A DNA stretch of 64,000 nt, taken from positions 2,406 to 66,405 of the forward strand of contig NZ_JACTVA010000013.1 in the NCBI RefSeq assembly GCF_014490485.1, read 5' to 3'. The notes below the pieces were generated by a model, which searched no databases, was not told where the DNA came from, and was given only the letters and a program-made list of their open reading frames with translations. This DNA comes from Teichococcus aerophilus. Its GTDB lineage: Bacteria; Pseudomonadota; Alphaproteobacteria; Acetobacterales; Acetobacteraceae. Below are positions 23,838 through 42,330 of this stretch, piece after piece. Position 1 is the first letter of the stretch. The number at the start of each line of letters is the position of its first letter. Position numbers and translations under genes: made by a program.

Positions 23838-23869
23838 ATGTCGTCTCCCCGTTCTTGTGTTGGGCGGCC

Positions 23870-25018
23870 TCAGTCGCGCGCGAGGCGCCAGTGCTCGGTC
23901 ATCCAGGGCGCCAGCTGAGCCGGCTCCAACTCCAGGCCGATGCCCGGACCCTCCGGCAGGCCCATGGTGCCATCCGCCGCCAGCTCCGGCGTGCCGCACA
24001 GCGTCAGCAGCGGGTTGGGCGTCACGTCATATTCGATGAAGGGATAGGGCAGCGCCCCGCCGCCGCGGCGCGCCGTCAGCAGCGCCGCCATCTGCAAGGC
24101 CGCGTGGAAGTTCACCACCGTGCCGAAGACATGCGGCATGGCCGGCACGTCGAAGGCATCCGCCAGGGCGGCGACGCGCCGCAGGCCGGTGAAGCCGCCG
24201 CACACCGTCAGGTCCGGCTGCAACACGCCGAAGGCACGCGCCTGCAGCATGTCGCGATAGGCGGCCAGGCTGCCTAGCGCCTCGCCCCCCGCGATGGCGC
24301 AGCGCGCGGCGCCGGCCAGGGTCTGGTAGCCGCCGGTATCCTCAGGCTGCAGCGGTTCCTCGACCCACAGCAGGTCAGCCTCCTCCATGGCGCGGAGGGA
24401 GGCCAGGGCCGGCCCCACCGTGTAGCCCTGGTTGATGTCGACCATCAGCGCGACGTCGTCGCCCACCTGGCGCCGCAGGGCGCGCGTCATGGCGCCGTCC
24501 TGGCGGGGGGAGACCCCGGCGCGGGGCTTGATGGCGCGGAAGTTGCGCCGCAGCAGCGCCTCGACCTGCGCGGGATAGGCGCCGTAGGGCTCGGGCCCCT
24601 CGGCGATGAAGGGGCCGCTGGCATAGGCCAGCATCCGCTGGCGGGAGGCACCGCCCAGCAGCTGCGCCACGCTGATGCCCCGCTCGCGGGCGGCGAGATC
24701 GTGCAGCGCCATGTCGATGGCGGAGACGCCCATCATGGCCGCGCCCCGCCGGTCGTAGGACAGGGTGGCCATCATCGCGCCGTAGAGCCGCGCCATGTCG
24801 CCGGCAGGCTGGCCCAGCACCAACGGCGCCAGCTTGGCCTTGATGAATGCCGCCGCCGCGAAGGGGGAGGAGAACACCTCGCCCCAGCCTCTCGTCCCGT
24901 CCTCCGCCACCAGTTCCAGCAGCAGGAAGTCCCGCCTGCGGATGAAGGTCGATGCGTTGCCGAGCGGCGGGCTGGGCGCGAAGCCGCAATGGTACCCGTT
25001 GATGGCGACGATCGTCAT
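23870..25018 (-). CDS. mandelate racemase/muconate lactonizing enzyme family protein
   Basis: A 382-residue enolase-superfamily enzyme. The capping domain is followed by the barrel, with metal ligands in LMVDINQGY, LWVEEPL and IAGGEAL. The second-strand region reads AIKPRAG rather than the KxK of MLE-type enzymes, and a late FGTVVNFHAAL segment may provide the general base region. It would abstract a proton alpha to a carboxylate (racemase, dehydratase or cycloisomerase). GGAGG precedes the ATG. Probably co-transcribed with the TctC gene and controlled by the divergent LysR at 25105. Confidence 0.87.
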   Translation of the reverse strand: MTIVAINGYHCGFAPSPPLGNASTFIRRRDFLLLELVAEDGTRGWGEVFSSPFAAAAFIKAKLAPLVLGQPAGDMARLYGAMMATLSYDRRGAAMMGVSAIDMALHDLAARERGISVAQLLGGASRQRMLAYASGPFIAEGPEPYGAYPAQVEALLRRNFRAIKPRAGVSPRQDGAMTRALRRQVGDDVALMVDINQGYTVGPALASLRAMEEADLLWVEEPLQPEDTGGYQTLAGAARCAIAGGEALGSLAAYRDMLQARAFGVLQPDLTVCGGFTGLRRVAALADAFDVPAMPHVFGTVVNFHAALQMAALLTARRGGGALPYPFIEYDVTPNPLLTLCGTPELAADGTMGLPEGPGIGLELEPAQLAPWMTEHWRLARD

Positions 25019-25104
25019 GCTTCCTCCGGCTTATTCGTTGCCACCAAAGCTGGTCGGGCCGCATCATGCTGTCAAATATCTGATTTTCCTGATTTCATAG
25101 ACAA

Positions 25105-26040
25105 ATGGTTATGAACCCGACACTCCGCGACCTCGAGGTCTTCCGCGCCGTGATGGAATGCGGCGGCGTCACCCAGGCCGCGCGGCAATTGGGCATGTCG
25201 CAGCCCGCCGCCAGCAAGATGCTCCGGCAGGCCGAGGAACGCCTCGGCTTCCAGCTCTTCCTCCGCGATGGCAAGCGGCTGGTGCCGACGGCGGAGGCAC
25301 ATGCGCTGCTGCCCGAATGGCTCGGGGCCGCGGCGGCCCTGGACGGCGTCAGCCGCCTGGCCGATGCCCTGCGCAAGGGCCGCAGCGGCCGGCTGGCCGT
25401 CGCCGCCGTGCCGGTGCTGGCCACGGCCCTGCTGCCGGATGCCGTGCAGGCCTTCCGTGCCCGGCATCCGGGGGTCCTTGTCTCCCTGCGGGCCTGCACG
25501 GCGCTGGAGGCGGCGCACCTGGTGGCGGACCACCGTGCCGACCTCGCAGTGATCCTGGGCCACTCGGCGGACCTGCGGGTCGAGACGGAACGCCTCGGAA
25601 CCTCGACGATCGGCTGCGTCCTGCCGCGACGCCACGCCCTGGCCCGCCATCGGCGGCTGGGGCTGATGGATCTGGCCGATCAACCGGTCATCTCGCTCTC
25701 GGCGCAGCAGCCGGTCGGCGCCATGCTGCGCCAGGCCATGGCGCAGGAACCCCGCATGGGGCAGGTGGTGGTGGAGGTATCGCAATCCAGCATCGCCTGC
25801 GCCCTGGTGCGGGCCGGGGCAGGGGTAGCGGTGCTCGACGGCTTCGGCCTGCGCGAGGCCAATGCCCAGGGGCTGCTGGTGCGGCCGCTACTGCCCGCGA
25901 TGCCGCTGGAAGTCTGCCTGCTGCGCCCCCGCCATCACGCCCAATCCATCCCCGCCGCCAGCTTCACCGCCTTCCTGAAGGAGGCGGCGCAGCGGGCGCT
26001 TGCAGGCGGGCGCGGGGTGAATGAGCACGGGGAGCGTTGA
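25105..26040 (+). CDS. LysR family transcriptional regulator
   Basis: A 311-residue LysR regulator. The HTH contains LRDLEVFRAVMECGGVTQAARQ, then SQPAASKMLRQAEERLGFQLF. The effector-binding domain follows from GRLAVAAVPVLATALLPDAV. Two in-frame ATGs lie 6 bases apart at 25105 and 25111. The 86-bp gap to the divergent enolase gene is AT-rich and probably holds both promoters and the operator. It is the last ordinary chromosomal gene before the accessory region. Confidence 0.9.
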   Translation: MVMNPTLRDLEVFRAVMECGGVTQAARQLGMSQPAASKMLRQAEERLGFQLFLRDGKRLVPTAEAHALLPEWLGAAAALDGVSRLADALRKGRSGRLAVAAVPVLATALLPDAVQAFRARHPGVLVSLRACTALEAAHLVADHRADLAVILGHSADLRVETERLGTSTIGCVLPRRHALARHRRLGLMDLADQPVISLSAQQPVGAMLRQAMAQEPRMGQVVVEVSQSSIACALVRAGAGVAVLDGFGLREANAQGLLVRPLLPAMPLEVCLLRPRHHAQSIPAASFTAFLKEAAQRALAGGRGVNEHGER

Positions 26041-26334
26041 GCCGGACAGGATGCAGGAGCGCCCAGCCGCATCTCTGCGGCGCTCAATCCCCACGGTGGC
26101 GGCGATGTCGCGCCAACGCTCCGTCTCTGCAAGGCTCAGCGGCGTATCCGGCGGACGCTCAGCGGTCCGCTACGGCAAGGCGTCGGGTTGTTGCCGCAAT
26201 GCCGGCAGGCCGCCAGCGGTGAGAGCCGGGCTCCGCCCGGCCGGGCACCTGTGGATCCCAGCAAAACCTGTCCCAGGGACCAACCTAAGTCATTGATTTG
26301 CCGATGCCCATTTCAGCAAATCATGTCACTGGCT

Positions 26335-26389
26335 TTAACCATAACTTGGCACCAGCCGACCCTAAATTAGCCATAAGTTGGCACTGGCC
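26335..26389. repeat. pair of 23-bp direct repeats, 32-bp period
   Basis: Copies at 26335-26357 and 26367-26389 share the core CCATAA-TTGGCAC and match at 19 of 23 positions. They lie in an AT-richer patch of the 552-bp gene-free gap 26041-26592. They could be transposase-binding sites of a Mu/Tn7- or IS21-type element end, and they sit just outside the TGTCAAC motif at 26441. Confidence 0.6.
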
Positions 26390-26440
26390 ATAGCTCACCT
26401 AACGAGGGCTGGCCATGTCCGAAGTGGCAGCATCTGCGCG

Positions 26441-26453
26441 AATCTCTGTCAAC
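26441..26453 (+). repeat. candidate left-end TnsB-binding motif
   Basis: AATCTCTGTCAAC matches the reverse complement of the right-end copy AATCTATGTCAAC at 12 of 13 positions. Related but weaker sites are ATGTCAC at 26313-26320 and TGTCAAC at 29151. Confidence 0.45.
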
Positions 26454-26539
26454 TTTGGCCGCTCCACGCCAGTGGTGCCGCAACGAGTGAACCAGTCGCC
26501 TCGGCAGAAAATCGAATCCTCTTTTGTTCTCGACCTGCA

Positions 26540-26579
26540 TATAATTTCCAGGTGACGCCCGGCTGCCGGGTTCAACCCG
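26540..26579 (+). promoter_or_regulatory. promoter and palindrome upstream of the CBASS effector
   Basis: A perfect -10 hexamer TATAAT is at 26540-26545, about 48 bp before the effector ATG; the -35 position is poor (TCCTCT), so an activator or extended context may be needed. A perfect palindrome CGGGTT-C-AACCCG spans 26567-26579, between the likely transcript start and the gene, and could be an operator or a 5' hairpin. Confidence 0.45.
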
Positions 26580-26592
26580 TGGATGCCGGTCG

Positions 26593-27708
26593 ATGCCCTG
26601 GTTCCGTAAGCATACAGAAGAAGCCCCGACGGGCTCTCGCACGCTGACCTTGACCGGCGTGACGCTTGTCGCCGCCGGGCTTGCGCTGATGAGCCCGGGC
26701 TTCAAGGATGCCCTGCTGTCGGCCGTGAACAAGGCGTTCGACCTCGGCCTATCCTTGGACGCGCCGTGGTGGACTGGGGTGCCGCTCGTCGCAGCTGGCG
26801 TCTGGTTGCTGGTGCCCCTTTTCGTGCGCCAGCTTCGGGACGCCCGGCGTCCAGACGAGCCCGCACGCGCCTTTCTCGCACTGCGCCATGTATCCCTGGA
26901 CCTGTCGCTGCCGCCGAAGCTGGAGGAAGTGTCGATCCCAGGATGGCTTGGCCGCCGCTATCTGCGGCACGCCGACTGCGACCAGACTAGGTGCCTGTCG
27001 CTCGGCGCCACCAAGCTGACTAGGGCGCTCAGTATCCAGGAAGATGCCTTTAACGAGATCACGGTTCAGCGCCGGAATGATGACCGGCTGGCCGTCGGCT
27101 ACTACGGCGTCGCTCACGTGCCGCTGCAGATCCTGGCCGGGCACACTGCCACGACGGCCGTCCGCGCCGCGCTCTTCGAACTCGACCGGCCGAACAGCAC
27201 CTGGCGCGAGCTGGCACAGGGGAAAGGCTCCAACCTCGGCGTCCGGATGCAGCCCAGCCCCTCTGCCGAACCACCGGTCTCGGCCGTCATCCGCGTGGCG
27301 GTGAGCTATGGCATCCCGCTGGCTGACGTCAGCGAGGTCGTGTCCGGGCCGTTCGACGAGTTCCTGATCACCGTTGCCGAGCCGAAGCGGGACATCATCA
27401 CGCACTACGGGCAGGTCGAGGCCATCGCAGACGCCTTCCGCGACGCGCTCGACAGCGCGCTGGGCAGGGTGCCCAAGGGCGGTATCATCCACGTTTTCGC
27501 CGCCGTGCCGATGTGCGTCGGCTTCTCACTCGGTAGGATGATCACCAAGACCCTTCACCCGGAAGTGGTCGCCTACAACTATTCGGCGCAGAGCACACCC
27601 CGCTATGCGTGGGGCATCCGCATCAACGTCAACGACCTGGGGCGGCGTCAGGTCGTCAGACCCCAGCAGGCCGGTATCCCCGAACTCGACGACGAGGCAG
27701 CAGAATGA
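26593..27708 (+). CDS. cap14: CBASS effector: two transmembrane helices fused to a SAVED domain (Cap14-like)
   Basis: A 371-residue protein. Two hydrophobic helices occupy about 17-36 (TLTLTGVTLVAAGLALMSPG) and 58-78 (PWWTGVPLVAAGVWLLVPLF). The C-terminal half is a SAVED nucleotide-sensing domain, best seen in GGIIHVFAAVPMCVGFSLGR followed by HPEVVAYNY and TPRYAWGIRIN. Known TM-SAVED effectors bind a cyclic oligonucleotide and disrupt the inner membrane, killing the infected cell. Its stop overlaps the start of the CD-NTase gene by ATGA, coupling the sensor-effector to its signal synthase. Name assigned by architecture; nucleotide specificity cannot be read. Confidence 0.85.
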   Translation: MPWFRKHTEEAPTGSRTLTLTGVTLVAAGLALMSPGFKDALLSAVNKAFDLGLSLDAPWWTGVPLVAAGVWLLVPLFVRQLRDARRPDEPARAFLALRHVSLDLSLPPKLEEVSIPGWLGRRYLRHADCDQTRCLSLGATKLTRALSIQEDAFNEITVQRRNDDRLAVGYYGVAHVPLQILAGHTATTAVRAALFELDRPNSTWRELAQGKGSNLGVRMQPSPSAEPPVSAVIRVAVSYGIPLADVSEVVSGPFDEFLITVAEPKRDIITHYGQVEAIADAFRDALDSALGRVPKGGIIHVFAAVPMCVGFSLGRMITKTLHPEVVAYNYSAQSTPRYAWGIRINVNDLGRRQVVRPQQAGIPELDDEAAE

Positions 27709-29099
27709 CCTCCTGGATGTTCATGTTCGACATGTCCGCGGACCTGTCGAGCTTCTACCACGGCCACATCAGGCTCGGAGGCGACCTCCGCACGAATCTG
27801 GCTGCCAAGCGGGACCTCAACCTCGACCGGCTCAACGCGGGCTTGGACGCGCTGGCCACCGAGACAGGGAAGCCGCACCCGCACTGGTGCGACTGGCGGA
27901 ACCAGGGCGGCTACGCGATGCACACCCTGAACAAGGACCCGTCGGACGAGAGCGACTACGACATCGACGTCGCCGTAATCTTCAAGAAGTCCGAAATCTG
28001 CGTGGATCCACTGCAGGCGCGGAAGCGCGTGCGGGACGCCCTGGCGAAGAAGTGCGTCAACTTCACCACGGAGCCGGAAGCCCGCACCAATGTCGTGACC
28101 ATCTACTATGCGGACGGCTACCACATCGACTTCGCCGTCTACCGGACCTACGTGGACGACGCGGGCGTGACGCATACCGAGCACGCCAGCCGGGAGTGGA
28201 CAGAACGGGACCCCGCCAAGGTCACCAACTGGTTCCAGAGCGCGGCCGACCGGCTGAGCCCAAAGGAGAACTCGTGGCTCGGCTACAAGCCCGCAGTGGC
28301 GCCCGGGCAGTTCCGGCGCATTGTGCGCTTCACCAAATGGTTCTGCCGCTCGCGCTCCGGTTGGACGCTGCCTGGCGGCATGGTGGTCTCGGCCCTCCTG
28401 GAGGAGGCGGGCGTCTATAAGGCCAACGACAACCGGGACGACCGAGCCCTCTATGACACGCTCGTCGCACTGCGGGACCGCCTCAAGGTCAATTGCCAGG
28501 TGTTCAGCCCCGTGGACGGCTCCGAGCTGACCGGCCGTACTGAGGTGCTGAACCAAGTGAAGCGCCTGCGCGATCGGCTCGACGAGAACCTGCCCAAGCT
28601 CGACATCCTATTCGACCAAGGCGCCTGCACCCGCGAGAAGGCACGCTCCGCCTGGGACTGGATCTTCAACCACGACTTCTGGGCTAAGAAGGAGACCGCC
28701 CAGAAGAGCCTCGTCGAGGCCCGGGCCATCGCCTTGCCATACTTCGTAGAGGTCACCTGCGGGCTGGCGAAAACCCATGGTGGCCTTGTCTACCGCTACT
28801 ACACGAGCGGCAAAGGCTTCCTGCCGAAGGACCTGCATCTCAGGTTCGACATGGTCAGGACCAACGTGCCCCCGCCGTACGACATCACCTGGCACTGCAC
28901 GAACGAGGGCGACGAGGCTGCCGAAGCCGAGCAGATTGGCTGGCAGCAAAGTGGGCCGGAGATCTGGACCAGCACGGCCTTCTCGGGTGTCCATCGGCTC
29001 ACCTGCCGGATCTCGGCCAACCAACGAGTGCTGGCCGAGACCTCCCACGTGGTGCGCATCGCTCGCGGTTTGCGTGGCATACGCGGCCTGCTCAGGTAG
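27705..29099 (+). CDS. CBASS CD-NTase with SMODS catalytic and AGS-C-like sensor domains
   Basis: A 464-residue cyclic-oligonucleotide synthase. The nucleotidyltransferase site shows GGYAMHTLN near residue 68, the metal pair D86 and D88 in DYDIDVAVIF, and the third acid D142 in YHIDFAVYR. The helical OAS-like part follows (to about 340). The last 95 residues, with YDITWHCTNEGDEAAEAEQ, the GVHRLTCRIS segment and TSHVVRIARG, match the AGS-C sensor domain found on many CBASS cyclases. It would make a second messenger for the SAVED effector upon phage infection. No Cap2/Cap3 or HORMA/TRIP13 genes are present, so this is a minimal type I layout. Confidence 0.88.
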   Translation: MTSWMFMFDMSADLSSFYHGHIRLGGDLRTNLAAKRDLNLDRLNAGLDALATETGKPHPHWCDWRNQGGYAMHTLNKDPSDESDYDIDVAVIFKKSEICVDPLQARKRVRDALAKKCVNFTTEPEARTNVVTIYYADGYHIDFAVYRTYVDDAGVTHTEHASREWTERDPAKVTNWFQSAADRLSPKENSWLGYKPAVAPGQFRRIVRFTKWFCRSRSGWTLPGGMVVSALLEEAGVYKANDNRDDRALYDTLVALRDRLKVNCQVFSPVDGSELTGRTEVLNQVKRLRDRLDENLPKLDILFDQGACTREKARSAWDWIFNHDFWAKKETAQKSLVEARAIALPYFVEVTCGLAKTHGGLVYRYYTSGKGFLPKDLHLRFDMVRTNVPPPYDITWHCTNEGDEAAEAEQIGWQQSGPEIWTSTAFSGVHRLTCRISANQRVLAETSHVVRIARGLRGIRGLLR

Positions 29100-29253
29100 C
29101 CGGGGCGGCTCCTAAGCAGCCGCAGGAGCTCAGTGAGCGTGACAGGGTCTTGTCAACTATGCGGAGCCGCAGTCGAGCCGCCGCCATTAGCAGCCGATTT
29201 CCACTTGGCCGAATGCCGCTGACGGTTACCCTTTCCACAGTCGTGGCAGCGAG

Positions 29254-30801
29254 ATGAGGGCTAGGGTGACCAAGGATTTCGGTTGGAAGATGCGCGCTGA
29301 CATCCTGCGGCGCGATGCCGAGCAGAAGCTGCTCGTTCCGCTGCGGGAACACCGCTGGACGGCCGAGATCGAGCGGGTGGTGGAGGAAGGCGAGTACGTC
29401 GTCATCACGGCAGAAAGGAACGGCTTCAAGCGGCGTTTGGCGCTTGTCTACAGCAGTGGCACCGACAACCGTGTGTTCCGCCGCCTTGATGAGGAAGTCG
29501 ACCTGACCCTCTTCAACGGTCAGCCGTACAAGCTTGATGAGTTCACCCGTGGCGTTTCGAGACCAGTGCGGTCGGCGGACGACTTCCACCACCATCTTGT
29601 CGAATGGAACCAGCTCAGCATTCCCGACAAGATAGCACCGGCTGCGATTCATCCGGAGGTGGCGGAGGAGGCGCCTGCTGGGCCACGGGAGAGGCGGCTC
29701 CTGTCCGAGGTGCCTATCGACGCGATCTGGTCACGTCTCTCGCGCCTGAAGAGCGCCACGCTGGCGAGGAAAGCCGTAGATGCCCGGGCCGCCGCGAGCG
29801 GCTTCCAGCTTGCCGCTGCCTCCCTGCAAACGAAGGGCGACGGGCTGGCCTACGCGGTCAGGAACGCGGCCGACTACTTCGCGCTGAAGGACGTCGGGAA
29901 CCTGAGCCAGCGGATCCTGAACCTCTACTACGGCTGCTTGGCGTTTGCCTTCGCTGAGATGCTTGCCGCGTCCGACGGCCCAGCCGAGCTGTCTAGCATC
30001 GAGGATATGACGAAGCAGGGGCATGGGCTGTGGACGCACGACGGCCAGGATGAGGGCTTCGGCGGCCTGGCCGTCGGGCCAACTGGGTCCGGCTTCTTCC
30101 TTAACTGGACGCAGTCCATGGGTGTCAGCCCCGTGGCCACCATGAAGAAGAAGCCGAGGCAGGCGTCTGACCTCTTAGCGGCACCGGAAGGCAGCTGGGC
30201 CACGATGGAGCAGCTGTTCGCCCGCATCCCAGAGGTTGGCGACCTCTTCGAGGACGTCTTCTCTGGTTCTCCTGCTTGGGTGTCGCCCAGTATAGAACAT
30301 CGCGCCAATCAGCGGACGGGGTTGTTCGGCGGCAATGACCGCGCGGAAACGAGCTACATACTGCTCGCCGATGATTCCGGGCGGATGACCGCTGAAACCT
30401 TGGTCGGCCTCCGGGGCCCCATTCGAGAAATCACCCCACTTCCGTCCGGTAGCCGGGCCCGCCACTTCCGCGCGGCCGTCGATCATCCGGATGCAGAATA
30501 CTGGTTTAGCACCCTCGACGTGCACCGTAGCCCGTTCGGTATGGGCGGACTCATCCTGCCCCTGTTCGGGTCCGTGACCCAGTATCGGGCAATCTGCTTC
30601 GTCATCCTGTACGGGTTGTCGATCGTCGTCCGCTACCGTCCGAGCCTGTGGCGCCGCATCCAGGAAGGGGATCTAGACCACATGCGTGCTCTGGTGGAGG
30701 CGTTCCTCACGACAGTGGAGCGCGTCCTTCCGGAGCAGTTCCTGGAGAGCATCACCGGCGAGAAGATGTCGGTGGGCCATCCCGCTTCCTTGCTCGGCTG
30801 A
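29254..30801 (+). CDS. YaaC-like protein with novel N-terminal region, candidate CBASS accessory
   Basis: A 515-residue protein 154 bp downstream of the CD-NTase on the same strand. Residues about 185-500 look like a YaaC domain, with helical VRNAADYFALKDVGNLSQR and ILNLYYGCLAFAFAEML, then a C-terminal GGLILPLFGSVTQYRA and FVILYGLSIVVRYRP. Residues 1-110 are a separate alpha/beta region: an Arg-rich start, VEEGEYVVITAERNGFKRR, LALVYSSGTDNRVFRR and VDLTLFNGQPYKLDEF. I do not recognise this part. YaaC function is unknown, but association with a CBASS pair is suggestive. An alternative start at 29290 exists. Confidence 0.6.
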   Translation: MRARVTKDFGWKMRADILRRDAEQKLLVPLREHRWTAEIERVVEEGEYVVITAERNGFKRRLALVYSSGTDNRVFRRLDEEVDLTLFNGQPYKLDEFTRGVSRPVRSADDFHHHLVEWNQLSIPDKIAPAAIHPEVAEEAPAGPRERRLLSEVPIDAIWSRLSRLKSATLARKAVDARAAASGFQLAAASLQTKGDGLAYAVRNAADYFALKDVGNLSQRILNLYYGCLAFAFAEMLAASDGPAELSSIEDMTKQGHGLWTHDGQDEGFGGLAVGPTGSGFFLNWTQSMGVSPVATMKKKPRQASDLLAAPEGSWATMEQLFARIPEVGDLFEDVFSGSPAWVSPSIEHRANQRTGLFGGNDRAETSYILLADDSGRMTAETLVGLRGPIREITPLPSGSRARHFRAAVDHPDAEYWFSTLDVHRSPFGMGGLILPLFGSVTQYRAICFVILYGLSIVVRYRPSLWRRIQEGDLDHMRALVEAFLTTVERVLPEQFLESITGEKMSVGHPASLLG

Positions 30802-30848
30802 CCTGACCTAAGCCGCCCCGTTGTCTCGATGGCGGCTCGGCAACAGGC

Positions 30849-33257
30849 TCAGGTGCCGCTTCCCAGCGGCCGCAGGAACTCAGCGAAGACACCGCCTACC
30901 CGGCCCTGGCCATCCACCGGCACGTAGATGTGGTGCCGGTCTCCCTCGTCGCGGCCGATCATCGGCTCGGCCACGCCCCAGGGCACGAGCAGGAAGAACG
31001 CCTGATCGCAGAACGCAAGCACCAGCCAGCCCCGCCGGGCGGCTTCCAGGCGCTTGCGCATGGGTGCGTTGAACCGGAAGACGTAGTTGGCTTTGAAGCG
31101 GGGCCTGCGCCCGGTGATCGCCTGCACGTAGATGCCGCCATGCTGGTCGGCGAAGCCGTTCCACGCCCGCCGCAGCGTCACGCCGAGCACGCGCGCTGCA
31201 GCCTTGCCAGCGCGGTCGGCCGCGTCGAACGCCTGCTGCGTCGAGGGCTTGGGTGTCCCTTCGACCACGTCCCGGCGCAGGCGGGCGAGGATGTTCGGCG
31301 TGAGGTCGGCACGCCGGAACAGGTGCGCCTCGCCCTCGTCCACGGCCGGGCCTGACGCCGCCCGCACCCCCAGGAAGGCGAGGCGTTCGGCCGCCCACCG
31401 ACCCGTGCCGACGCCGGTCATGGCCGCTACCTCACCCGCCTGGACGAAATCTCGCCTGAAGGCGTCCAGCGCCTCCTGGGTCACCCGCAGCCCGCGCTCC
31501 TCCCGCGTCCCGAGGACCACCGTCGCCAGCAGGCCGCGCTTGACCCAGAGGCGGGCGGTTTCCGCCGCGACACCGAGGGCATGCGCCGCCTCGACAACTG
31601 ACAAGGTCGTACGCGGCACCCGGATGGACGTCAAAATGTCGCGGCGGTCGAGCATTATTCGGCCGAGACCTTTCGCCCTGGCCTGCAGGGCCACCGGAAC
31701 CAGGCTGCCGTCGAGTACGGCCTGGCAGACCTGCACCAGGGAGCGGTGGGGCTGGGGCGCGTCCGCCAGGGACACAAAGGCCATGCCCTTGCGGCGCACC
31801 CTGCCGCTGGGGATCTTGGCCTCCAGGGACGCCACAAGGGCCTCAACGTCGGCCACGCGGTAGATGCGCTGGTGAATGACCCGTTCCCCGGGAGGGACGA
31901 CCGGCAGCAGGCCTGCGGCCGTGAGTTCCCGCAACGCCGGGCGTCCGACGCCAAGGGTCTGCTCCGCCTCCTGCTTGAAGAGCGTCGCTGCCTTGGTCGC
32001 GTGCAGCTGCTTCACCAAGTCCGCCCTCAACAGGGACGGGGCGCCCTGTCCTGTGGAGCGCACCAGGTACAGGCCCTCGCGGTCGGCGAGCTCAATCATG
32101 GTCTCAGGGGCGACCTCAAGGAAGCGGGCGGCCTCGGACATGGTCATGTGCCGGTGGCGCAGCGCCTCGAGCGAGCCGTAGCGCCGCAGCCCGGCCGCCG
32201 TGGTGGCGAAGTCGAGCTGGGTCGCGGCGAAGACCGCGAACGCCTCCGCCACCGGCCTGACCCAGGGCTCCCCGCCGAAGCGGAACAGCCAGTGCGTCAG
32301 GTAGCCGAACTCCTTCCTGAGGCCGTACCGCCCCCGCCGCCCGCCAGCCCGGGCCCTCAGCCGTTCCAGCAGGACATGGAAGCCCCTCGGCCAATCGGCC
32401 AGCGCCGCCCAGCCCTCGTCGAGGACTAGGTGCATCGTCTCGGGGTGGCGTTCGAGAACGTCGATGGGGCGGCCCACCCGCTCGAACCCGCAGGCGAAGG
32501 CGCCGAGCTGAAAGGCGAGCCGGACCAACTCGCCGCCGGAGAGGCCGGGCGGACCGGCACCGACGGGGATGGCGTCGCCAAGGGCATCGATCGTCATCGC
32601 GGTGCCAGCCACCTCGGCGGCGGGGACCGGCTGCGCCAGCACCTCCAGCAGGTCCGCCCCGCACCCTCGCCGGGGGCAACAGGTCAGAGTTCCTGCCTGC
32701 CAACTCAGGGGCTTGTTGCATGCCGGGCACCCGTCGACGAGGCGCAGGGCGTGCCAGGGGCATATTGCGACGACTGCCAGGTCCCATGCCATCCAGTGGA
32801 AGCCGTGCTCGCGCAGGCACTCTGGGCAGTAGCGGCGGTAGGTCAGTCGGAAAAATTCACGGGGCAGCAGGTGCCCCGTGAACTGGAGGCGCGTCGGATC
32901 CGAGGTGGGGTAGGAGATGCGGTCGAGTGTCGCCTGGTCCAAGCCGAGCAGGGTGGCGAGGGCGCCTCGGAACCCTGGCTCCGGTGGTTCGGACAGGATG
33001 GTCTGCAGCGACTGGCCAGGCAGGCGGATCCGGCCGAGCACGCGCGCCGGATCCCGGAAGCCATAGACTTTGGCGTTCCTGACAACCAGCGAGGCTAGGT
33101 TCTCCCCGGGGTTCAGATGCTCCGGGTGCGGTAAGGAGTAGCCGGTGCCATGGTTGGCGAAGAACCCCGCGGGGCGCCTGCGCCCGGCCATCCTGCTGCG
33201 ACGGCGGGCGCGGGCGGATGCGTTGCGCGCGTCGCCGCGAACGCCGTCTGAGGACAT
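30849..33257 (-). CDS. tniQ: TniQ/TnsD-like target-selection protein, unusually long
   Basis: An 802-residue protein. The TniQ region covers about 30-330: GYSLPHPEHLNPGENLASLV, and zinc-ligand motifs YCPECL (near 143), ICPWHALRLVDGCPACNKPL and CCPRRGCGADL. It is followed by at least four HTH-like segments, including MSEAARFLEVAPETM, LGVGRPALRELTAAGLL, VVEAAHALGVAAETARLWV and VAAMTGVGTGRWAAERL, and a novel C-terminal domain with FCDQAFFLLVPWGVAEP. Tn7-family TnsD proteins use the C-terminal part to bind a specific target, so a DNA-site-specific insertion mode is likely. The start lies 1 bp after the tnsC stop. Confidence 0.85.
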   Translation of the reverse strand: MSSDGVRGDARNASARARRRSRMAGRRRPAGFFANHGTGYSLPHPEHLNPGENLASLVVRNAKVYGFRDPARVLGRIRLPGQSLQTILSEPPEPGFRGALATLLGLDQATLDRISYPTSDPTRLQFTGHLLPREFFRLTYRRYCPECLREHGFHWMAWDLAVVAICPWHALRLVDGCPACNKPLSWQAGTLTCCPRRGCGADLLEVLAQPVPAAEVAGTAMTIDALGDAIPVGAGPPGLSGGELVRLAFQLGAFACGFERVGRPIDVLERHPETMHLVLDEGWAALADWPRGFHVLLERLRARAGGRRGRYGLRKEFGYLTHWLFRFGGEPWVRPVAEAFAVFAATQLDFATTAAGLRRYGSLEALRHRHMTMSEAARFLEVAPETMIELADREGLYLVRSTGQGAPSLLRADLVKQLHATKAATLFKQEAEQTLGVGRPALRELTAAGLLPVVPPGERVIHQRIYRVADVEALVASLEAKIPSGRVRRKGMAFVSLADAPQPHRSLVQVCQAVLDGSLVPVALQARAKGLGRIMLDRRDILTSIRVPRTTLSVVEAAHALGVAAETARLWVKRGLLATVVLGTREERGLRVTQEALDAFRRDFVQAGEVAAMTGVGTGRWAAERLAFLGVRAASGPAVDEGEAHLFRRADLTPNILARLRRDVVEGTPKPSTQQAFDAADRAGKAAARVLGVTLRRAWNGFADQHGGIYVQAITGRRPRFKANYVFRFNAPMRKRLEAARRGWLVLAFCDQAFFLLVPWGVAEPMIGRDEGDRHHIYVPVDGQGRVGGVFAEFLRPLGSGT

Positions 33258-33258
33258 C

Positions 33259-34182
33259 TCAGTCGTTCCCGGCCGGGCGGACGGAGCGGGGCGCCGGGCC
33301 CCGGAAGGGGTTGGCCCGGCGACGCTCACCGAGCAGCTGGCCATCGGCGGCCTCGGCCATCAGCTCCATGGTGATCCTCGGGAGCTTGCGGATGCGGGCG
33401 AAGGCGAGGGCCGCCGCGATGAGGTTGGCCGCAAGTCCAATGAGGCCCTCGCAGAAGGCGTAGATGCGGAGCGCCATGTTGGCATCGCTGAATTGCGCGC
33501 GCTCCGGTAAACCAAGGCCCTCATCGATGGCATACAGCAGCGCCCGGAACTCGTGCCGATCCGCCTTGTCCGCCCAGTCGTACGGCTTGACCTCGTACGC
33601 CCCGATAATTCTACCCGCGAGCTGGCGGTTGTTCTGGCCGATCAACCGCATGGTCTTAGGCTCTCCGATGAGGAGGAGGGGCGACACCTTGCCGTTCAGG
33701 ACCCGCGTCAGCCACTTTCCCCCGCTTTCGACCACGGTGTCGGTATCCGAGTTAATGAGGTTGTGGATCTCGTCGAAGATCGTGAAGATCGGCTCCCGGC
33801 GCTTCAGCTCGTCGATAACGCGCTGTGTCTTCTGCGCTTCGTTCCCGTAACTGGGATCCGGGTCGCCCATGGCTTCGAGCGACGTGCCCGCGAGCTTGTT
33901 CAGGGTGCTGTTCGGCACCGCCTCCACGTATGGCAGACGCGCCATGAGGTTGTGGGTTCCGTTGACCCCATAGCGCAGTTTGGCCCAGTTCTCTGGCAGG
34001 AAGGTTTTTCCGGAACGAGGGAAGCCAAGAATGATGACCGCCTTGTGGTAGTTTCGCTCCCGTCCGTACTGCGCCAGCATGTCGAGATACTCGAACGCCT
34101 TTTCCGCCCGCTTGGTCTTGTAGAAGACCGAACTGACGATAGCCTTCGCGTCGAAGTCAGCGCTGTCATCCTGATCACTCAT
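33259..34182 (-). CDS. tnsC: TnsC/TniB-type AAA+ transposition regulator
   Basis: A 307-residue ATPase that links target recognition (TniQ) to the transposase (TnsB). Walker A is GFPRSGKTF (residues about 52-60), Walker B IFTIFDEIHNLI, and a sensor-like LLIGEPKTMRLIGQN follows. These match TniB/TnsC proteins of Tn5053/Tn7-type elements. The start MSDQDD overlaps the end of tnsB by 8 bases; longer upstream readings are the tnsB gene in another frame. Together with tnsA, tnsB and tniQ it forms a tight four-gene operon. Confidence 0.92.
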   Translation of the reverse strand: MSDQDDSADFDAKAIVSSVFYKTKRAEKAFEYLDMLAQYGRERNYHKAVIILGFPRSGKTFLPENWAKLRYGVNGTHNLMARLPYVEAVPNSTLNKLAGTSLEAMGDPDPSYGNEAQKTQRVIDELKRREPIFTIFDEIHNLINSDTDTVVESGGKWLTRVLNGKVSPLLLIGEPKTMRLIGQNNRQLAGRIIGAYEVKPYDWADKADRHEFRALLYAIDEGLGLPERAQFSDANMALRIYAFCEGLIGLAANLIAAALAFARIRKLPRITMELMAEAADGQLLGERRRANPFRGPAPRSVRPAGND

Positions 34183-36403
34183 CTTGCCCATCCCTGTGAA
34201 CCTTGCCGCGAACCGCCGCGGCAAAATCGATGTCGTCGTCCGCGTCCCAGTCGAGGTCGCGACCCTCGGCAGCGGAAGCAGGTGATGCCTCGGCCGTTGA
34301 CTTCGATGCTGGTTTTGGTCGGATGCCGGGAGAGCGTTTGCGCTTCGGCGCGGGCGGCGCCTCCGGGTCCGCGGACGGCGCCGTGCTGGCGCCATCCCCC
34401 TCCGGCAACGTCTCATCCCCAGCGTTCCCAAAGATGTCCTCGGCGATGTCCAGTCCGCTGGCCGCCTCGTCGAAGCTCGGCTCCTCGGCCTGCATGCGCA
34501 TCCGCGCCTTCTCCCAGGCGGCCTGCGCTCGCTCGCGGTTCTTCAAGCCCTTCTGCGTCAAACGCTTCTTGAACAGGCCATCCAACTCGGCCGCCGCTGC
34601 ATCGTGCCCGTCCTCGTCGTCCGGAAACGCCTCCGGGTTCTCGCGCTGAAGCGCCCGCACACGAAGGTGCCACTCGAGTGACCGGCCCCGCAGGCGCTCG
34701 CGCCAGCGTCCCCGCGCCCGAGCCTCCTTCCATTGCCCGTCGCGCGGGTCGCGGAAGTGGCCGACGCTAACGTCCAGCCGGTTCGGTTTGAACTGCACGT
34801 AGCGGTGCAGCGGGTGGATCGACAGGTCGGCCAGGATGCCGTCCTTGTCGGCGTAGTCGACCAGTTCGAAGCGGATGCCGGACCGCTGAACCTTGCGCCA
34901 GGAGGGGGGCGATGTGAGCACGGCGACCTGTTCGGGGCCGAGCGGCGGGCGCATGCCATGGCGGGTCACGCTCTCCTCGTAGGCGCGGAGCGGCGAGCTC
35001 CCCAGGCTGCGGTGCGTGCGCTGGTGGTAGACGCTGACGATGTAGCGGGTGACGAGCTCATTCAGCTGGGTGAGGGTCGTGCGCGCCACCTTCTCCGGGA
35101 TGGCCTCCTTGTTCCGGAGGAACCAGTTGGAGAAGGTCGTGCCCTCGATCCGTTCGAAGGTGTTCCTAGACAGCGTCTGGATGAACCGCTCGATGGTGCC
35201 CTTGTACCAAGCCTTGAGGACGGGGGCGTACTCGACGCGGGCACCCAGGCCGCTCATGGCCTCCACGAATGTGAAGGAGCGGAACTCCTTGGCGCGGTCG
35301 GGCACGATGATCTTGGGGCCGCTGAAGCAGGGCCAGGGGACATTCAGACCCTTGACCCGCCTGAGTGCCTCGTCCTTCGGCAGGAGCGCCATGGCCATGC
35401 ACTCCATGACGCTCCATGTGCCGGGCGGCGCGAAGGTGATGAAGAAGCCGACGCACATGCGGGTCGCGCGGTCGAGGATGACCGTCACCCATGGCCTGCC
35501 AATCGGCTTTCCGGTCGTCTCGTCGACCGCAATGGCGTTGACCCTGGTGTGGTCGATCTCCCAAACGTCGTTGTGCCGATCGGCGACCGGGCCTGGGCCA
35601 ATCGGACGATGCTTGCGGTTCGCCTCCCGCGCCCCCTCGCGGCAGTGGGCCAGCGTATAAAGGTCAATCTTCTTGATTTCGGCGTAGACGGCGGTGGGGC
35701 TGGGGCATCTCAGCTTCTGCCCCTCGGGCAGCGGGGCGTTGTGATCGTCGAACGCTGTCTTCACCGCCCGGTAGACGGCCGCGCCGGACGGCCGCGTGTC
35801 CACCAGGTACTCACTCTCGACTGTCGCGGTCAGCAGCTCGCGCTGCAGCGCCAGCCTGTCGGTGCGATTGCCGCGGTTCAGGATTTGCGGAACCACGGCG
35901 TCGGGCACGCAGCCGCCGTTCAACCACTCGCCAACCCAGCGCACCGCGTGGCGCGCGGATGGCGGCCTTCTATCTCCGGTCGCCTCTGCAACCCGCCTGA
36001 CCACCGGCGCCATCATCAGGGCCGTGCGCGACGGCCTTCCCGCGTCTTCCCACCCCTGGCAGTAGGCCGCCTTGCGCATGGTCTCGGCGCCGTACGCCTC
36101 CCAGCGCGCCCGGTCGATCTCGTCCTGCTGGTTGAACACGTCCAGCGTGACGCGGATGCGCTTGCCCTCGGCGGTGTAGGCCAAAGCCTCGATGGCCGTC
36201 AGTAGCCGGAGCTCGCCCCGCTGCTGCATCTCCAACAGCTGGATGTCGGTGAGATCGAGGCGGGTCCCACCATCGCACTCGAAGAGCAGCCGCCGGTGCT
36301 TGTCCTTGCTCCGGCCCAGGTAACGCCTGGGCGTGTCGTTGATGACGGCGATGCATCCGTGCTCAAGCTGGAACTGGAGGTTCAGCTTGCCGAGGGACTT
36401 CAC
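34175..36403 (-). CDS. tnsB: TnsB-like DDE transposase
   Basis: A 742-residue Mu/Tn7-type transposase with rve integrase core. The catalytic triad is D284 (VWEIDHTRVNA), D369 (IIVPDRAKEF) and E405 (KGTIERFIQTL), with exactly 35 residues between the last two. The N-terminal third contains a DNA-binding region, and the C-terminus is Pro/Asp-rich, a likely TnsC contact tail. The GTG start overlaps the tnsA stop as GTGA, indicating coupled translation. Codons upstream of 36403 in this frame are a shadow of tnsA. Confidence 0.93.
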   Translation of the reverse strand: MKSLGKLNLQFQLEHGCIAVINDTPRRYLGRSKDKHRRLLFECDGGTRLDLTDIQLLEMQQRGELRLLTAIEALAYTAEGKRIRVTLDVFNQQDEIDRARWEAYGAETMRKAAYCQGWEDAGRPSRTALMMAPVVRRVAEATGDRRPPSARHAVRWVGEWLNGGCVPDAVVPQILNRGNRTDRLALQRELLTATVESEYLVDTRPSGAAVYRAVKTAFDDHNAPLPEGQKLRCPSPTAVYAEIKKIDLYTLAHCREGAREANRKHRPIGPGPVADRHNDVWEIDHTRVNAIAVDETTGKPIGRPWVTVILDRATRMCVGFFITFAPPGTWSVMECMAMALLPKDEALRRVKGLNVPWPCFSGPKIIVPDRAKEFRSFTFVEAMSGLGARVEYAPVLKAWYKGTIERFIQTLSRNTFERIEGTTFSNWFLRNKEAIPEKVARTTLTQLNELVTRYIVSVYHQRTHRSLGSSPLRAYEESVTRHGMRPPLGPEQVAVLTSPPSWRKVQRSGIRFELVDYADKDGILADLSIHPLHRYVQFKPNRLDVSVGHFRDPRDGQWKEARARGRWRERLRGRSLEWHLRVRALQRENPEAFPDDEDGHDAAAAELDGLFKKRLTQKGLKNRERAQAAWEKARMRMQAEEPSFDEAASGLDIAEDIFGNAGDETLPEGDGASTAPSADPEAPPAPKRKRSPGIRPKPASKSTAEASPASAAEGRDLDWDADDDIDFAAAVRGKVHRDGQDE

Positions 36404-37200
36404 CCGCGCGGCCTCCAGGACTCGAGCCGTACCCGCATGGCCGCGAGACTGGCGGCTGCCAGATCCGCCCGCAGATCGCCGCGCAGCGCCAGTGCCAGCA
36501 CCGTCGCCCGCACGAAGGTCTCTGCCGGGAGAGTGGCCTCGAGGTCGCCGATGGCCTGCCAGCCGCGGCCGGTGAGTGCCCCGACGACCGCCCGCTCCGT
36601 CGCGGGCGGCGGTGTGTAGTAGGCGTGCGCCAGGATCTCGGCCGCGTTGCCGAGCCGCGGCTCCACGGACACCTGCGCCCGCGACAGCCTCTGGTAACGC
36701 CAGCCACGCTCGGCGTAGATGGCGGTTAGGGCGCGGCTTCCCGGGGTGCCCTCGGGTGGCACCTCGCCGTCGACGACGTCGATCACCGCGGTGCCGCCGC
36801 CGCGGCGCCGCGCCCTGATGGCAGGCGCGTATGAGCGCGGCTCGCCGTTCAGGGCGAGGAATACGCGCTCGGGGAAGGTCTCGTAGGCGGCGACCTCCCG
36901 GTTGATCTCCAGGAGCACCATCAGCCTGCCGATCCAGCGGTTGGGATAGGCCATCGGCCGCCCGTTCTTCGGGCTGCTGCAGATGCCGTTGACGATGCCC
37001 GGCGAGCCTGCCGCGAGGCGGGCGCGTTCCGGGGCCGGGATCGGCTCGACCCGGTAGGTGATCTTGCCGTCCGGCGTGTCGAGGGTCGTGACGGGCGCCG
37101 CCGGGGGTGCCGCCTGAACGCGCTTCCGTCTTGGCTGGCCTGCGGGCGCGGCGGTGCCGCTCGGCAAGTCCTTGCGAGAAGATGTGTGAGCGGTGCCCAT
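36400..37200 (-). CDS. tnsA: TnsA-like transposon endonuclease
   Basis: A 266-residue protein. The segment WIGRLMVLLEINREVAAYET, then RSYAPAIRARRRGGGTAVIDVVDG, matches the TnsA PD-(D/E)XK nuclease: a glutamate in LLEIN, an aspartate near IDV and a basic residue after. TnsA cuts the 5' ends of the element so that, with TnsB, transposition is cut-and-paste. A helical C-terminal region follows, as in TnsA. AGGGG 7 bases before the ATG supports the start. First gene of the tnsA-tnsB-tnsC-tniQ operon, next to the putative right end. Confidence 0.82.
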   Translation of the reverse strand: MGTAHTSSRKDLPSGTAAPAGQPRRKRVQAAPPAAPVTTLDTPDGKITYRVEPIPAPERARLAAGSPGIVNGICSSPKNGRPMAYPNRWIGRLMVLLEINREVAAYETFPERVFLALNGEPRSYAPAIRARRRGGGTAVIDVVDGEVPPEGTPGSRALTAIYAERGWRYQRLSRAQVSVEPRLGNAAEILAHAYYTPPPATERAVVGALTGRGWQAIGDLEATLPAETFVRATVLALALRGDLRADLAAASLAAMRVRLESWRPRG

Positions 37201-37385
37201 GCTTGACCCCTGGCTGTGACCGACAAGGCCGCCTCACGGTGGATGCGATTCAGATCAGACGAATCGGTTACTTGTCAATCTACAATCGGCATGCGACGTT
37301 TTGCTCCAGAGGCGGGTGCCTCTAGCGGCGATTCTGGAAAATTCACTCCAGAAGGATTAATGGTCTATCCTCTGAATACTTCGAG

Positions 37386-37423
37386 TGTTGACATAGATTA
37401 TTTGGGAAATGTTGACATAGATA
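37386..37423 (-). repeat. candidate right-end TnsB-binding repeats
   Basis: Two copies of TGTTGACATAGAT at 37386-37398 and 37410-37422 lie 24 bp apart in an AT-rich stretch (about 37250-37423) of the 259-bp gap between tnsA and the FtsH-like gene. Base composition returns to high GC immediately after 37423. Their reverse complement matches the left motif at 26441, in inverted orientation. Confidence 0.55.
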
Positions 37424-37459
37424 CGCGCCTTGATGCGGCGCGACGCAGGGGTGCGCCTG

Positions 37460-39640
37460 TCAGGGCTTGCGGGGCGGGCGGGGAGGGGTGCCTGCGGTGA
37501 GCAGGCGCTCGACATCGGCGCCCGAGACGGTCTCCTGGGTGGCGAGCAGGTCCGCTAGGCGGCAGATGGCAAATCCATGTTTGCGCACCACCGACCGCGC
37601 CTCCGCGTAGGCGGCGTCCAACATCTCGCCGACCCGGGCCGCGACCTCTGGCCGCATCGCCAACAGGGCGGGAACACCGGCAGCGTCGGGCAGGCCGCGC
37701 CAGACTAAGGCGCCGTCACCCTCGTCGAGGCCGAGCGCGGTCACAGCCGCCGTCGCGAGGCGCGTTGCCGTGGCGAGGTCGCTCTCGGCTCCGCCACCGC
37801 TCCCGGCCGATGCCTCGCCGAGCAGTTCCTCCTCGGCCGCCCGGCCCGCCAGCGCCTCGCGCAGCAGAGTTGACAGGGCGGCGCGGGTGAACGCGGGCTG
37901 GCCACCGGCCGGATCCGCCAGCAGCACCCGGCCAGCGTGTTCGCCGACCGCCAGGACGGTCACGGAAACCACGGCACCCGGCCGCTCCAGTGCCGTCACC
38001 ACCGCGTGCCCGGCCTCGTGGATGGCCACGCGGCGCAGCACCTCCGGGGCCGGGCGGGGCCCGCCGCCGCGCAGCTCCGCCTCCAGGTCCGCCAGGGTCG
38101 CCTCCCGCCGGTCGTGCCGCGCCCGCCGCCGCATGCCGCGGACCCAGCGCTCGGCCTCGGCGCCGGTGGCCCCGAGACCCAGCAGCGCCAGGCGCGACAG
38201 GTCGGCGCCGGGCAGGTCGCCGCCAAGGTGGTGGCGCAGGATGGCGGCCAGCGCCGCCTGGTCCGGCAGCGGCACCCGGATCAGGCGCTCCAGGCGCCCC
38301 GGACGCAGGATGGCCGGGTCGATGCGGCTGGCGTCGTTGCAGCAGCCCAGGACGACGACACCCTCGCGCCCGGCGGCGCCGTCCAGCTCCTCGAGGAAGG
38401 CGTTGACCACCTGGACCGAGTAGTCGCGGTCGTGGTGGCGGAAGGTGGTGCGGTTGCCGAAGCTGTCGATCTCGTCCACGAGAAGGATGCAGGGCGCCGC
38501 CTTGCGCGCGGCCTCGAAGGTCCCGCGCATGGCGCCCAGGGTCGTGCCGAGGTGGCCGTCCTTGGCACCCTGCCACTGCCCCAGGGAGCCGGTCACCAGC
38601 GGCACTCCGCACTGCGCGGCCAGCGCCCTGGCGAAGGTCGTCTTGCCTGTGCCGGTGGGACCGACTAGCACGGCGCCGCGGTCCACGTCGCGCCACGGCA
38701 ACGCGCCGCGGGCGTAGTCGGCGAGGTCGCGGGCGACGTCCTTGCCCCAGCGCGCGGCTTCCTCCATCCCGTGCAGGCCGTCGAGCGTCAGCGGCCGGGC
38801 GCCGATCCGCGACGACGCCAGCTCCGCCAGCCGCCGGAGGTAGTCGTCGGCGTCCTGGTGCGGCAGCCGGGCCAGCCACAGGTCGCCGACGGTGACCAGC
38901 CGCGCCACCTCCGGCGGGACGGACGCGCTGACCGGCGCGGCACCCGTCAACATGGTCGCTGCTTCGGCCAACGCGGCCGGATCGAGCGGGCCGACTGTCA
39001 CCGTCGCCGTGGCGGCCCGCAGCAGGTCTGATGGCAGGCAGCGGGCGGGCGCCGGGCTGAAGCCGTAGACCGGGCGCCCGCTGGCGACCATGGTGCGAAC
39101 GGCGCCGTTGCCGTCCTCGGGGCGGTGCCAACGGTCGGAGCCGTCGCGGCGGAACTCAGCCCAGCTCGGTTCAATCTTGCTGATCCGACGGTATGGCCGA
39201 TCCTGGGCGTCGTCGCCGTCGAAAGGTACCTCGTCCGTGCCGTGGATCAGCATGCGCCAGGTCTCGGCGACGGGGACGACCCACTCGGCGTCCGGCACCT
39301 CGATCACGAGGACCGCGCCCGGCTCCCGCGCCCTGCCGTGGAGGGTGGGGTCGGCCATCAGCAGTCGCCGCACCATGGCGTATGCGGCGGCCTCGGCAGG
39401 GTCTTCCAGGCGCACCCGCGAGGGCCGGTGCGCGGGCGGCGGCTGCGGCTCCCGCGCCTGCGGCGGGTTCGGACCGAGGTGGAACGGCTCGTCACCGATC
39501 TCCTCCTCGACGGCCTCGGCCAGCCCTTCGATGGCGAGGTCCAGCGCGTCGCCGGTCAGTGCGGCGGCGCCACCCATGCTGCCGGGCGGCAGGGCAGGTG
39601 AGGGGGCGGATGCGGAGGTGTTGGGGATGGGGTTCGGCAT
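37460..39640 (-). CDS. soluble FtsH-like AAA+ zinc metalloprotease
   Basis: A 726-residue protein. The first 300 residues are unfamiliar and Pro/Ala/Glu-rich. The AAA+ module has Walker A VGPTGTGKTTFA (about 327), Walker B CILLVDEID, and the second region of homology RIDPAILRPGRLERLI. The M41-type peptidase has HEAGH near residue 542 and the third-ligand region AESDLATATRLA. FtsH normally carries two N-terminal transmembrane helices; none are visible here, so this is a cytosolic variant. It follows the DUF6634-like gene by 4 bp, implying an operon. Role unknown; regulated proteolysis or a plasmid/defence function are possible. Confidence 0.85.
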   Translation of the reverse strand: MPNPIPNTSASAPSPALPPGSMGGAAALTGDALDLAIEGLAEAVEEEIGDEPFHLGPNPPQAREPQPPPAHRPSRVRLEDPAEAAAYAMVRRLLMADPTLHGRAREPGAVLVIEVPDAEWVVPVAETWRMLIHGTDEVPFDGDDAQDRPYRRISKIEPSWAEFRRDGSDRWHRPEDGNGAVRTMVASGRPVYGFSPAPARCLPSDLLRAATATVTVGPLDPAALAEAATMLTGAAPVSASVPPEVARLVTVGDLWLARLPHQDADDYLRRLAELASSRIGARPLTLDGLHGMEEAARWGKDVARDLADYARGALPWRDVDRGAVLVGPTGTGKTTFARALAAQCGVPLVTGSLGQWQGAKDGHLGTTLGAMRGTFEAARKAAPCILLVDEIDSFGNRTTFRHHDRDYSVQVVNAFLEELDGAAGREGVVVLGCCNDASRIDPAILRPGRLERLIRVPLPDQAALAAILRHHLGGDLPGADLSRLALLGLGATGAEAERWVRGMRRRARHDRREATLADLEAELRGGGPRPAPEVLRRVAIHEAGHAVVTALERPGAVVSVTVLAVGEHAGRVLLADPAGGQPAFTRAALSTLLREALAGRAAEEELLGEASAGSGGGAESDLATATRLATAAVTALGLDEGDGALVWRGLPDAAGVPALLAMRPEVAARVGEMLDAAYAEARSVVRKHGFAICRLADLLATQETVSGADVERLLTAGTPPRPPRKP

Positions 39641-39644
39641 GGCG

Positions 39645-40016
39645 TCACCGCAGGCCCAGGGAGCAGGTCCGGTCGGCGGGCGGCGGCACGACCGGCATGG
39701 GCGCGCGCGGGGCGCCGAGCCGGTAGAGGCGGTTCAACGTACGCGCCCAGCCAACGGTCGGCGCGAAGGCCCACAGGTCGGAGGTGCGGCAGAAGGGGCC
39801 GTCCAGCAACGGATGGCCAGTGACGGCGCCGACGAGGCACAAGACCGGGCGCGAGGTCACGGCCCACCCCTCCAGCAGCGGCGCCTCGGACAGCTCCTCC
39901 GCAGACGGCATCCCGACAGCGGCCAGGCGCCGCAGGTCCGCGGCCAGCGTTTCCAACCTGCTGGCTTCCGCCTCGACGTCGCCGCGCACGGTTCCTCGTT
40001 CACCGATGATAAGCAT
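39645..40016 (-). CDS. DUF6634-like protein
   Basis: A 123-residue protein starting MLIIGERGTV, with a helical middle and the pattern GHPLLDGPF-C-RTSDLWAFAP, then ARTLNRLYRLG. AGGAGG sits 5 bases before the ATG. I associate this with the DUF6634 group of small alphaproteobacterial proteins, from memory and not from a search. It is directly upstream of the FtsH-like gene with only 4 bp between, so it may be a substrate, adaptor or regulator of the protease. Confidence 0.6.
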   Translation of the reverse strand: MLIIGERGTVRGDVEAEASRLETLAADLRRLAAVGMPSAEELSEAPLLEGWAVTSRPVLCLVGAVTGHPLLDGPFCRTSDLWAFAPTVGWARTLNRLYRLGAPRAPMPVVPPPADRTCSLGLR

Positions 40017-42157: not shown

Positions 42158-42330
42158 CCTCGATCTCCAGCCGATGGCGGGGTGCATCATAGCGCGGCGC
42201 CTGCCGAAGGGGACCAGCCCGACCAAACCGGACCGGCTACGCCTCGCGGCACGTGTGGCGCGGCCCACCGGATCCAAGGATCCGGTGCCATGTTGGTGGT
42301 CGGAAGATCGCCAGCCGCTACGGCCTCCCG

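Follow-up and report, generated by a model that had tools for sequence, protein, structure and literature searches.

TnsA proteins with PD-(D/E)xK residues are found in classic Tn7, but not in all Tn7-like members. In Tn7-like elements, TnsA decides between cut-and-paste transposition and cointegrate formation, a question which is also of practical concern for transposon-based genome tools. Here, we analyze a stretch of 64,000 nucleotides from Teichococcus aerophilus (the window; assembly GCF_014490485.1, contig NZ_JACTVA010000013.1, positions 2,406 to 66,405), which is part of a 97.2-kb contig from a genome of 5.66 Mb. The element it contains encodes TnsB, TnsC/TniB and TniQ, and is thereby a member of the Tn7-like transposons. 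It likely represents a distinct clade of these transposons. The element carries a cyclic oligonucleotide-based antiphage signaling system (CBASS) and a YaaC-like protein as cargo, lies just behind the 3' end of an accessory FtsH-like gene, possesses a TnsA devoid of its catalytic residues and would move by replicative transposition.

As in Tn7 and Tn7-like elements (Benler 2021, PMC8649781; Faure 2023, PMC10293859; these two sources and PMC11406308 are drawn on here in part), TnsB, TnsC and TniQ are encoded by a compact operon, the tnsA-side end lies beside the 3' end of a gene and the cargo comprises defense genes. The present element differs from them by a TnsA kept without its catalytic residues and by its probable target, an accessory FtsH-like gene. 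It is also reminiscent of Tn5053-type and type V-K elements, for which replicative transposition has been predicted or shown (PMC11406308; PMC8649781); however, these elements lack tnsA altogether, whereas a TnsA-like protein is kept here, and Tn5053-type elements use a resolvase, none of which was seen in the window element. Point mutations of the tnsA catalytic residues have been reported to abolish cut-and-paste but not replicative transposition (Benler 2021, PMC8649781). Like these laboratory Tn7 mutants (cited in PMC8649781), the element has a TnsA which is present and, judging by its residues, unable to cut, but here the loss is natural and common to a lineage. In the portions of PMC10293859, PMC8649781 and PMC11406308 drawn on, no natural dead TnsA was seen, although one may be in print elsewhere. 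Such a lineage, if true, would allow what TnsA does structurally to be told apart from what it does as a nuclease.

Loss of the catalytic residues in TnsA

The initial annotation of the window, made from the sequence alone, had described an intact tnsA-tnsB-tnsC-tniQ operon with active-site residues. This description holds for the motifs of TnsB, TnsC and TniQ but fails for TnsA, which reads I90, A127 and V143 at the positions of the catalytic E, D and K. The protein has no Pfam match and phmmer with one intact TnsA gave only chance-level matches; its assignment relies on profile comparisons. An alignment of four intact TnsAs (A3) keeps E78, D115, E129 and K131; in the PDB, its match is the TnsA portion of PseTnsAB (E 1e-14), with the same residues aligned. 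An alignment of six window-type TnsAs, window included (A4), was in turn matched to A3 by hhalign (E 4.5e-21). Across A4, the D position reads A, A, S, A, S or Q and the K position V, E, F, F, V or F, both being lost in all six proteins, while the E position is lost in two (I90 in the window, L in Belnapia). The TnsA of G013, split over two frames and kept outside these six, is by eye also devoid of D and K. In this genome (L127:508-1316), the split of tnsA over two reading frames may reflect decay or an assembly error.

Among 385 genomes of the class, the A4 profile has ten matches outside the window's own genome. Nine are readable at the triad (L181, aligned too poorly there, was not counted): all nine keep D and K, and eight keep E, which aligns with H in L179. 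Taking A3 and these nine matches together as canonical TnsAs, D and K are kept in 13/13 and all three residues in 12/13. The lineage-B TnsA-like proteins, assigned by position and alignment only, keep the PD but not the ExK motif. Two further loci (G003:C21 and G011:C21; L062:6402-7995 and L126:8530-10153) contain two tandem TnsA genes ahead of tnsB; the E/D/ExK triad is intact in the first, and all three positions are changed in the second.

A TnsB scan of genome contigs returned one relative, from Belnapia rosea (G242; same family as the window's host), with 75% identity. In the TnsB tree (L137 and L173 being the same gene), one branch with 100/99 support comprises six FtsH elements, one element behind a putative gyrB and the two double-TnsA elements; none of its members has only a canonical TnsA. 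Between the window and Belnapia (one pair, NG86), the ratio of nonsynonymous to synonymous substitution rates (dN/dS) is 0.36 for tnsA, 0.20 for tnsB, 0.29 for tnsC and 0.22 for tniQ, and tnsA therefore looks maintained. As its catalytic residues are lost yet the gene looks maintained, TnsA is probably a non-catalytic subunit and transposition is probably replicative.

The accessory FtsH-like gene and the right end

A search of the family with the FtsH-like protein matched 295 of 299 genomes, mostly at lower scores taken as housekeeping FtsH. We inspected 24 accessory FtsH loci, absences being established by tblastn with the window proteins and from maps read by eye; about eleven further accessory matches, among the matches listed, lie outside this set (G233, G033, two of three in G214, G180, G334:C43, G345, G317, G324, G342 and G211). 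In 11/24 loci, the FtsH 3' end is immediately followed by a Tn7-like element whose tnsA side faces it, a figure which is not an unbiased rate since G009 and G242:C26 were chosen by their TnsB. Six of these elements belong to the window lineage (window, G242:C71, G242:C26, G050:C477, G050:C514 and G013, the latter split over two contigs) and five to another lineage (G003:C6, G004, G008, G009 and G016), whose TnsBs are 25-27% identical to that of the window. This recurrence in two distant TnsB lineages suggests that the accessory FtsH-like gene is probably the attachment site, as judged by position. The window and G003 share 96% DNA identity over 37504-44799 (the FtsH block), though distant transposons follow; FtsH gene and transposon thus appear to have separate histories, meeting at the FtsH 3' end. 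A shared attachment site gathering varied defense systems would help to explain the build-up of defense genes behind one gene in this bacterial family. One inspected locus, G209, with a degraded FtsH piece among TnsC/TniQ remnants, was counted neither with nor without an element.

It had been anticipated that an uninterrupted locus including the FtsH-like gene at its junction would contradict the transposon; this gene instead most probably serves as the attachment site. The other contrary case named, a CBASS here in the absence of the tns genes, was not found in the searches made. The word "FtsH" is absent from the main text of PMC10293859 and PMC8649781, and literature searches for Tn7-like elements with FtsH and an attachment site, or with Acetobacteraceae, returned no paper.

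Between the target gene and tnsA, the octamer TGTTGACA/TGTCAACA occurs in 7/7 lineage elements, window included, with 10 copies for about 0.04 expected (summed means of single-base shuffles); for L064, L127 and L170, these intervals use tnsA starts assigned by eye. Within the window, it is found only at 37386 and 37410. It is present in neither of the two lineage-B intervals tested, and a single further copy occurs elsewhere in the seven loci (L064). Since its orientation varies (reversed in L059 and L161) and since it contains TTGACA, the octamer could be a promoter or operator rather than a terminus. Of the matching inward-facing TGTCAAC motifs proposed as ends of the element, the right-hand signal is thus real, while its left-hand partner is weak; the 7-mer as such has five copies in the window for 3.02 +/- 1.60 expected. 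The right end itself can be placed only within about 37201-37504 (~300 bp), because the FtsH gene diverges from the G003 copy beyond 37504.

Several further observations concern this gene and its surroundings. At window positions 37460-37504, the last FtsH codons diverge from the G003 copy, to which the next 7.3 kb show 96% identity, and the window FtsH lacks the C-terminal end common to G003 and Belnapia. A DUF6634 gene (window 39645-40034) adjoins many accessory FtsH genes, usually just upstream, the pair being found in varied contexts. The second, distant Tn7-like lineage, which follows the same FtsH gene in five genus members (L055, L056, L057, L058 and L129), has a shared core with variable stretches between; a second TniQ gene was seen in four of them. 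A related element with a dead TnsA is located on an Azospirillum argentinense plasmid (L170:2552-11546), behind a gene read by eye as gyrB, which itself follows apparent dnaN and recF. Searched viral contigs contained no TniQ relative.

Exchange of defense cargo

The initial annotation had proposed a Tn7-like transposon with a defense block opposite the tns set. This block is confirmed by Pfam, PADLOC and NCBIfam, which identify SAVED, CD-NTase and YaaC genes. The SAVED effector and the DncV-like cyclase are predicted to form a two-gene CBASS, similar to that of the Methylorubrum extorquens DM4 plasmid p2METDI, in which a SAVED gene also precedes the cyclase (52.5% identity to the window cyclase). 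The latter differs in being plasmid-borne, and the gene table of that stretch, itself incomplete, lists neither tns nor YaaC genes.

In relatives, the slot beyond tniQ contains other systems: a CBASS with cyclase, E2 and phospholipase in G050:C477, Lamassu genes in G013 (LmuA being split over two frames), a pPIWI-RE system in G242:C26, a Zorya-like ZorB in G003:C21 (ZorA being weak), a 1442-aa protein with a weak MzaA match beside a 1749-aa protein in Belnapia C71, and two proteins without PADLOC match in G050:C514. The strongest argument for CBASS being part of the transposon is this swapping of the defense slot while the tns genes are kept. The proposed CBASS cargo is thus well supported, and the suggested search for related tns sets with other cargo was positive, the tns set being constant and the adjoining defense system variable. 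CBASS as cargo of Tn7-like elements is already known and not new in kind: a table of Tn7-like defense cargo includes a CBASS row with the number 216 (Benler 2021, PMC8649781).

Whether CBASS is the sole cargo, as initially stated, is doubtful. On the two plasmids opened for YaaC homologues, CBASS genes are absent from the listed neighbors (gene tables incomplete), and YaaC is therefore probably a separate cargo. YaaC as a CBASS partner is unsupported, each having been seen without the other being listed, and a literature search pairing YaaC with CBASS found no paper. YaaC proteins with 36-40% identity, covering at least 80% of the query, occur in 12 plasmid records, mostly enterobacterial. In G209 (L166:6128-16637), the degraded FtsH, TnsC and TniQ pieces lie near restriction-modification-like genes (by eye), and fragments there resemble the window SAVED protein.

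Mode of transposition and alternative explanations

In the mechanism we propose, the long TniQ, which bears a helix-turn-helix (HTH) domain, would direct TnsC to the FtsH 3' end, and TnsB, which retains its DDE residues, would cleave the 3' ends and join them. The TnsA-like subunit is probably kept as a structural or regulatory partner of TnsB and TnsC, holding the complex without cutting. With the nuclease triad lost, the 5' ends would remain uncut and transposition would proceed through a cointegrate, to be resolved by host recombination. More tentatively, and with slightly less than even confidence, we propose that the endonuclease TnsA has become an obligate non-catalytic transposase subunit in this clade, which replicatively moves defense systems into a fixed site behind accessory FtsH genes, and that in some members the dead TnsA has been re-paired with an active one.

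Several observations weigh against a replicative, FtsH-directed transposon. The two double-TnsA relatives carry an intact gene beside the dead one, making a nuclease in trans possible, and D and K have likewise been replaced in the TnsA of G192 (L163), whose TnsB falls on a long branch outside the clade. A TnsA structure prediction from two sequences was unusable (predicted local distance difference test, pLDDT, 38.5), and a PDB search with the dead-TnsA profile gave no match. No resolvase gene was seen in the element, while relatives without TnsA typically gain one (Benler 2021, PMC8649781). Within the 100/99 TnsB branch, the FtsH-adjacent elements do not form a single clade, with at least two changes. 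In 12/24 inspected loci, no element lies directly behind FtsH (G078, G003:C21, G223, G334:C6, G338, G192, G174, G230, G354, G214, G022 and G158); prim-pol-like, integrase-like or other genes follow instead (by eye), with a Tn7-like element several kilobases away in G022 and G158. The octamer also lies at varying distances from the conserved FtsH codons, 84 and 102 nt in the two cases measured.

The left end weighs in the same direction. The boundary proposed at 26447 is unsupported: its 18/21 inverted match to the right side beats 400/400 shuffles, but 32/374 random pairs of real window sequence equal it. With a consensus from other elements, eight sites including this left one have four mismatches and three others match better, and right-flank pentamers sought at the left ends of the window and its relatives gave no support for a left end. 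Beside the TGTCAAC motifs, the expected 5-bp target duplication is lacking, the pentamers being ATCTC (left) and TAGAT (right); this may simply reflect a left end located elsewhere. Nor did the suggested comparison with relatives reveal an empty site in the searches made. In the genus, searched with LysR-side DNA, G006 matches window positions 22857-25970 plus a short repeat within, with no uninterrupted locus; in the window's own genome, the G006 sequence beyond the break yielded 65-72% partial and short matches only. A family search with 26040-26600 gave, besides the window, only short matches (best E 2.6e-6).

Three other explanations were considered. The element could be an immobile relic, in which TnsA decayed, the left end was lost and CBASS was left stranded in a genomic island, as the missing duplication, the unsupported left end and the three changed TnsA positions would suggest. 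We consider this unlikely: all four tns frames are open, dN/dS remains at 0.20-0.36 in the single pair compared, and the D and K losses are common to six aligned elements with different cargo, a pattern that decay of one copy would not produce. Alternatively, cut-and-paste could persist through another nuclease cutting the 5' ends, such as a TnsA acting in trans. G003:C21 and G011:C21, in which the dead TnsA is directly preceded by one with an intact triad, point in this direction, but the profile which finds intact TnsAs elsewhere finds only this TnsA in the host genome (7/73 first-look candidates scored there) and no second TnsA-like frame was seen beside tnsB in the open reading frame list, leaving this option a low probability.

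It is also conceivable that the FtsH-like gene is a component or habitual passenger, the true right end being located beyond FtsH/DUF6634. FtsH and tnsA are indeed on the same strand, roughly 240-370 bp apart where the tnsA start is evident, and, in three relatives, FtsH and TnsB show closely similar levels of identity to their window counterparts (76/75, 45/44 and 44/42 percent). Such an arrangement appears quite improbable given that the FtsH block is 96% identical to that of G003, whose neighboring transposon is of another lineage, that half of the inspected FtsH loci have no element directly behind them, that a related element lies behind the putative gyrB (L170) while two others have no FtsH beside tnsA, and that the octamer is located between FtsH and tnsA. 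The FtsH-like gene as an attachment site outside the element is therefore preferred.

Gene content of the locus

The tniQ-tnsC-tnsB-tnsA genes converge on the SAVED, CD-NTase and YaaC genes (Table 1). The rve match of TnsB (E 4.1e-5) is below the Pfam cut-off, the Walker A motif of TnsC is at residue 84 and TniQ has two CxxC pairs. The CD-NTase possesses a DxD plus D motif (D86, D88 and D142), its match to the NCBIfam cGAS model being below cut-off. In the N-terminal part of the SAVED protein, a single hydrophobic segment is clear, near residue 60; another at this place remains under the threshold used. The FtsH-like protein retains Walker A and HEAGH.

Table 1. Features of the Tn7-like element and its flanks (window coordinates).
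Feature	Position	Strand	Evidence or remark
LysR-like gene	25105-26040		Flanks CBASS side; read by eye
Proposed left-end repeat AATCTCTGTCAACTTT	26441..26456	+	Not supported
SAVED-domain CBASS effector, cargo	26593..27708	+	Pfam SAVED E 6.5e-32; NCBIfam SAVED
CD-NTase, DncV-like cyclase, cargo	27705..29099	+	Pfam DncV-like and AGS_C; PADLOC cyclase E 5.4e-184
YaaC-like protein, probably separate cargo	29254..30801	+	Pfam YaaC E 3.8e-19; PADLOC: no match
TniQ with HTH, probable target selector	30849..33344	-	Pfam TniQ E 1.9e-14, HTH_17
TnsC/TniB ATPase	33259..34275	-	Pfam TniB E 4.7e-10, Walker A; start not fixed
TnsB transposase, DDE intact	34175..36403	-	PADLOC TnsB E 2.2e-21; D284/D369/E405
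TnsA-like subunit without catalytic triad	36400..37200	-	hhalign 99.4% probability to intact TnsAs; NCBIfam TnsA-like E 2.8e-6, weak, below cut-off
13-bp repeat TGTTGACATAGAT, two copies; conserved signal at the right end (operator, TnsB site or terminus)	37386..37422	.	
Accessory gene for an FtsH-like AAA+/M41 protease; outside element, probable attachment site	37460..39640	-	Pfam AAA, Peptidase_M41

Just outside the proposed left end, window positions 26335-26389 contain two 23-nt direct repeats, 83% alike, with the core CCATAASTTGGCAC at 26339 and 26371. Among 182 loci, this core occurs only in loci of the window's own genome.

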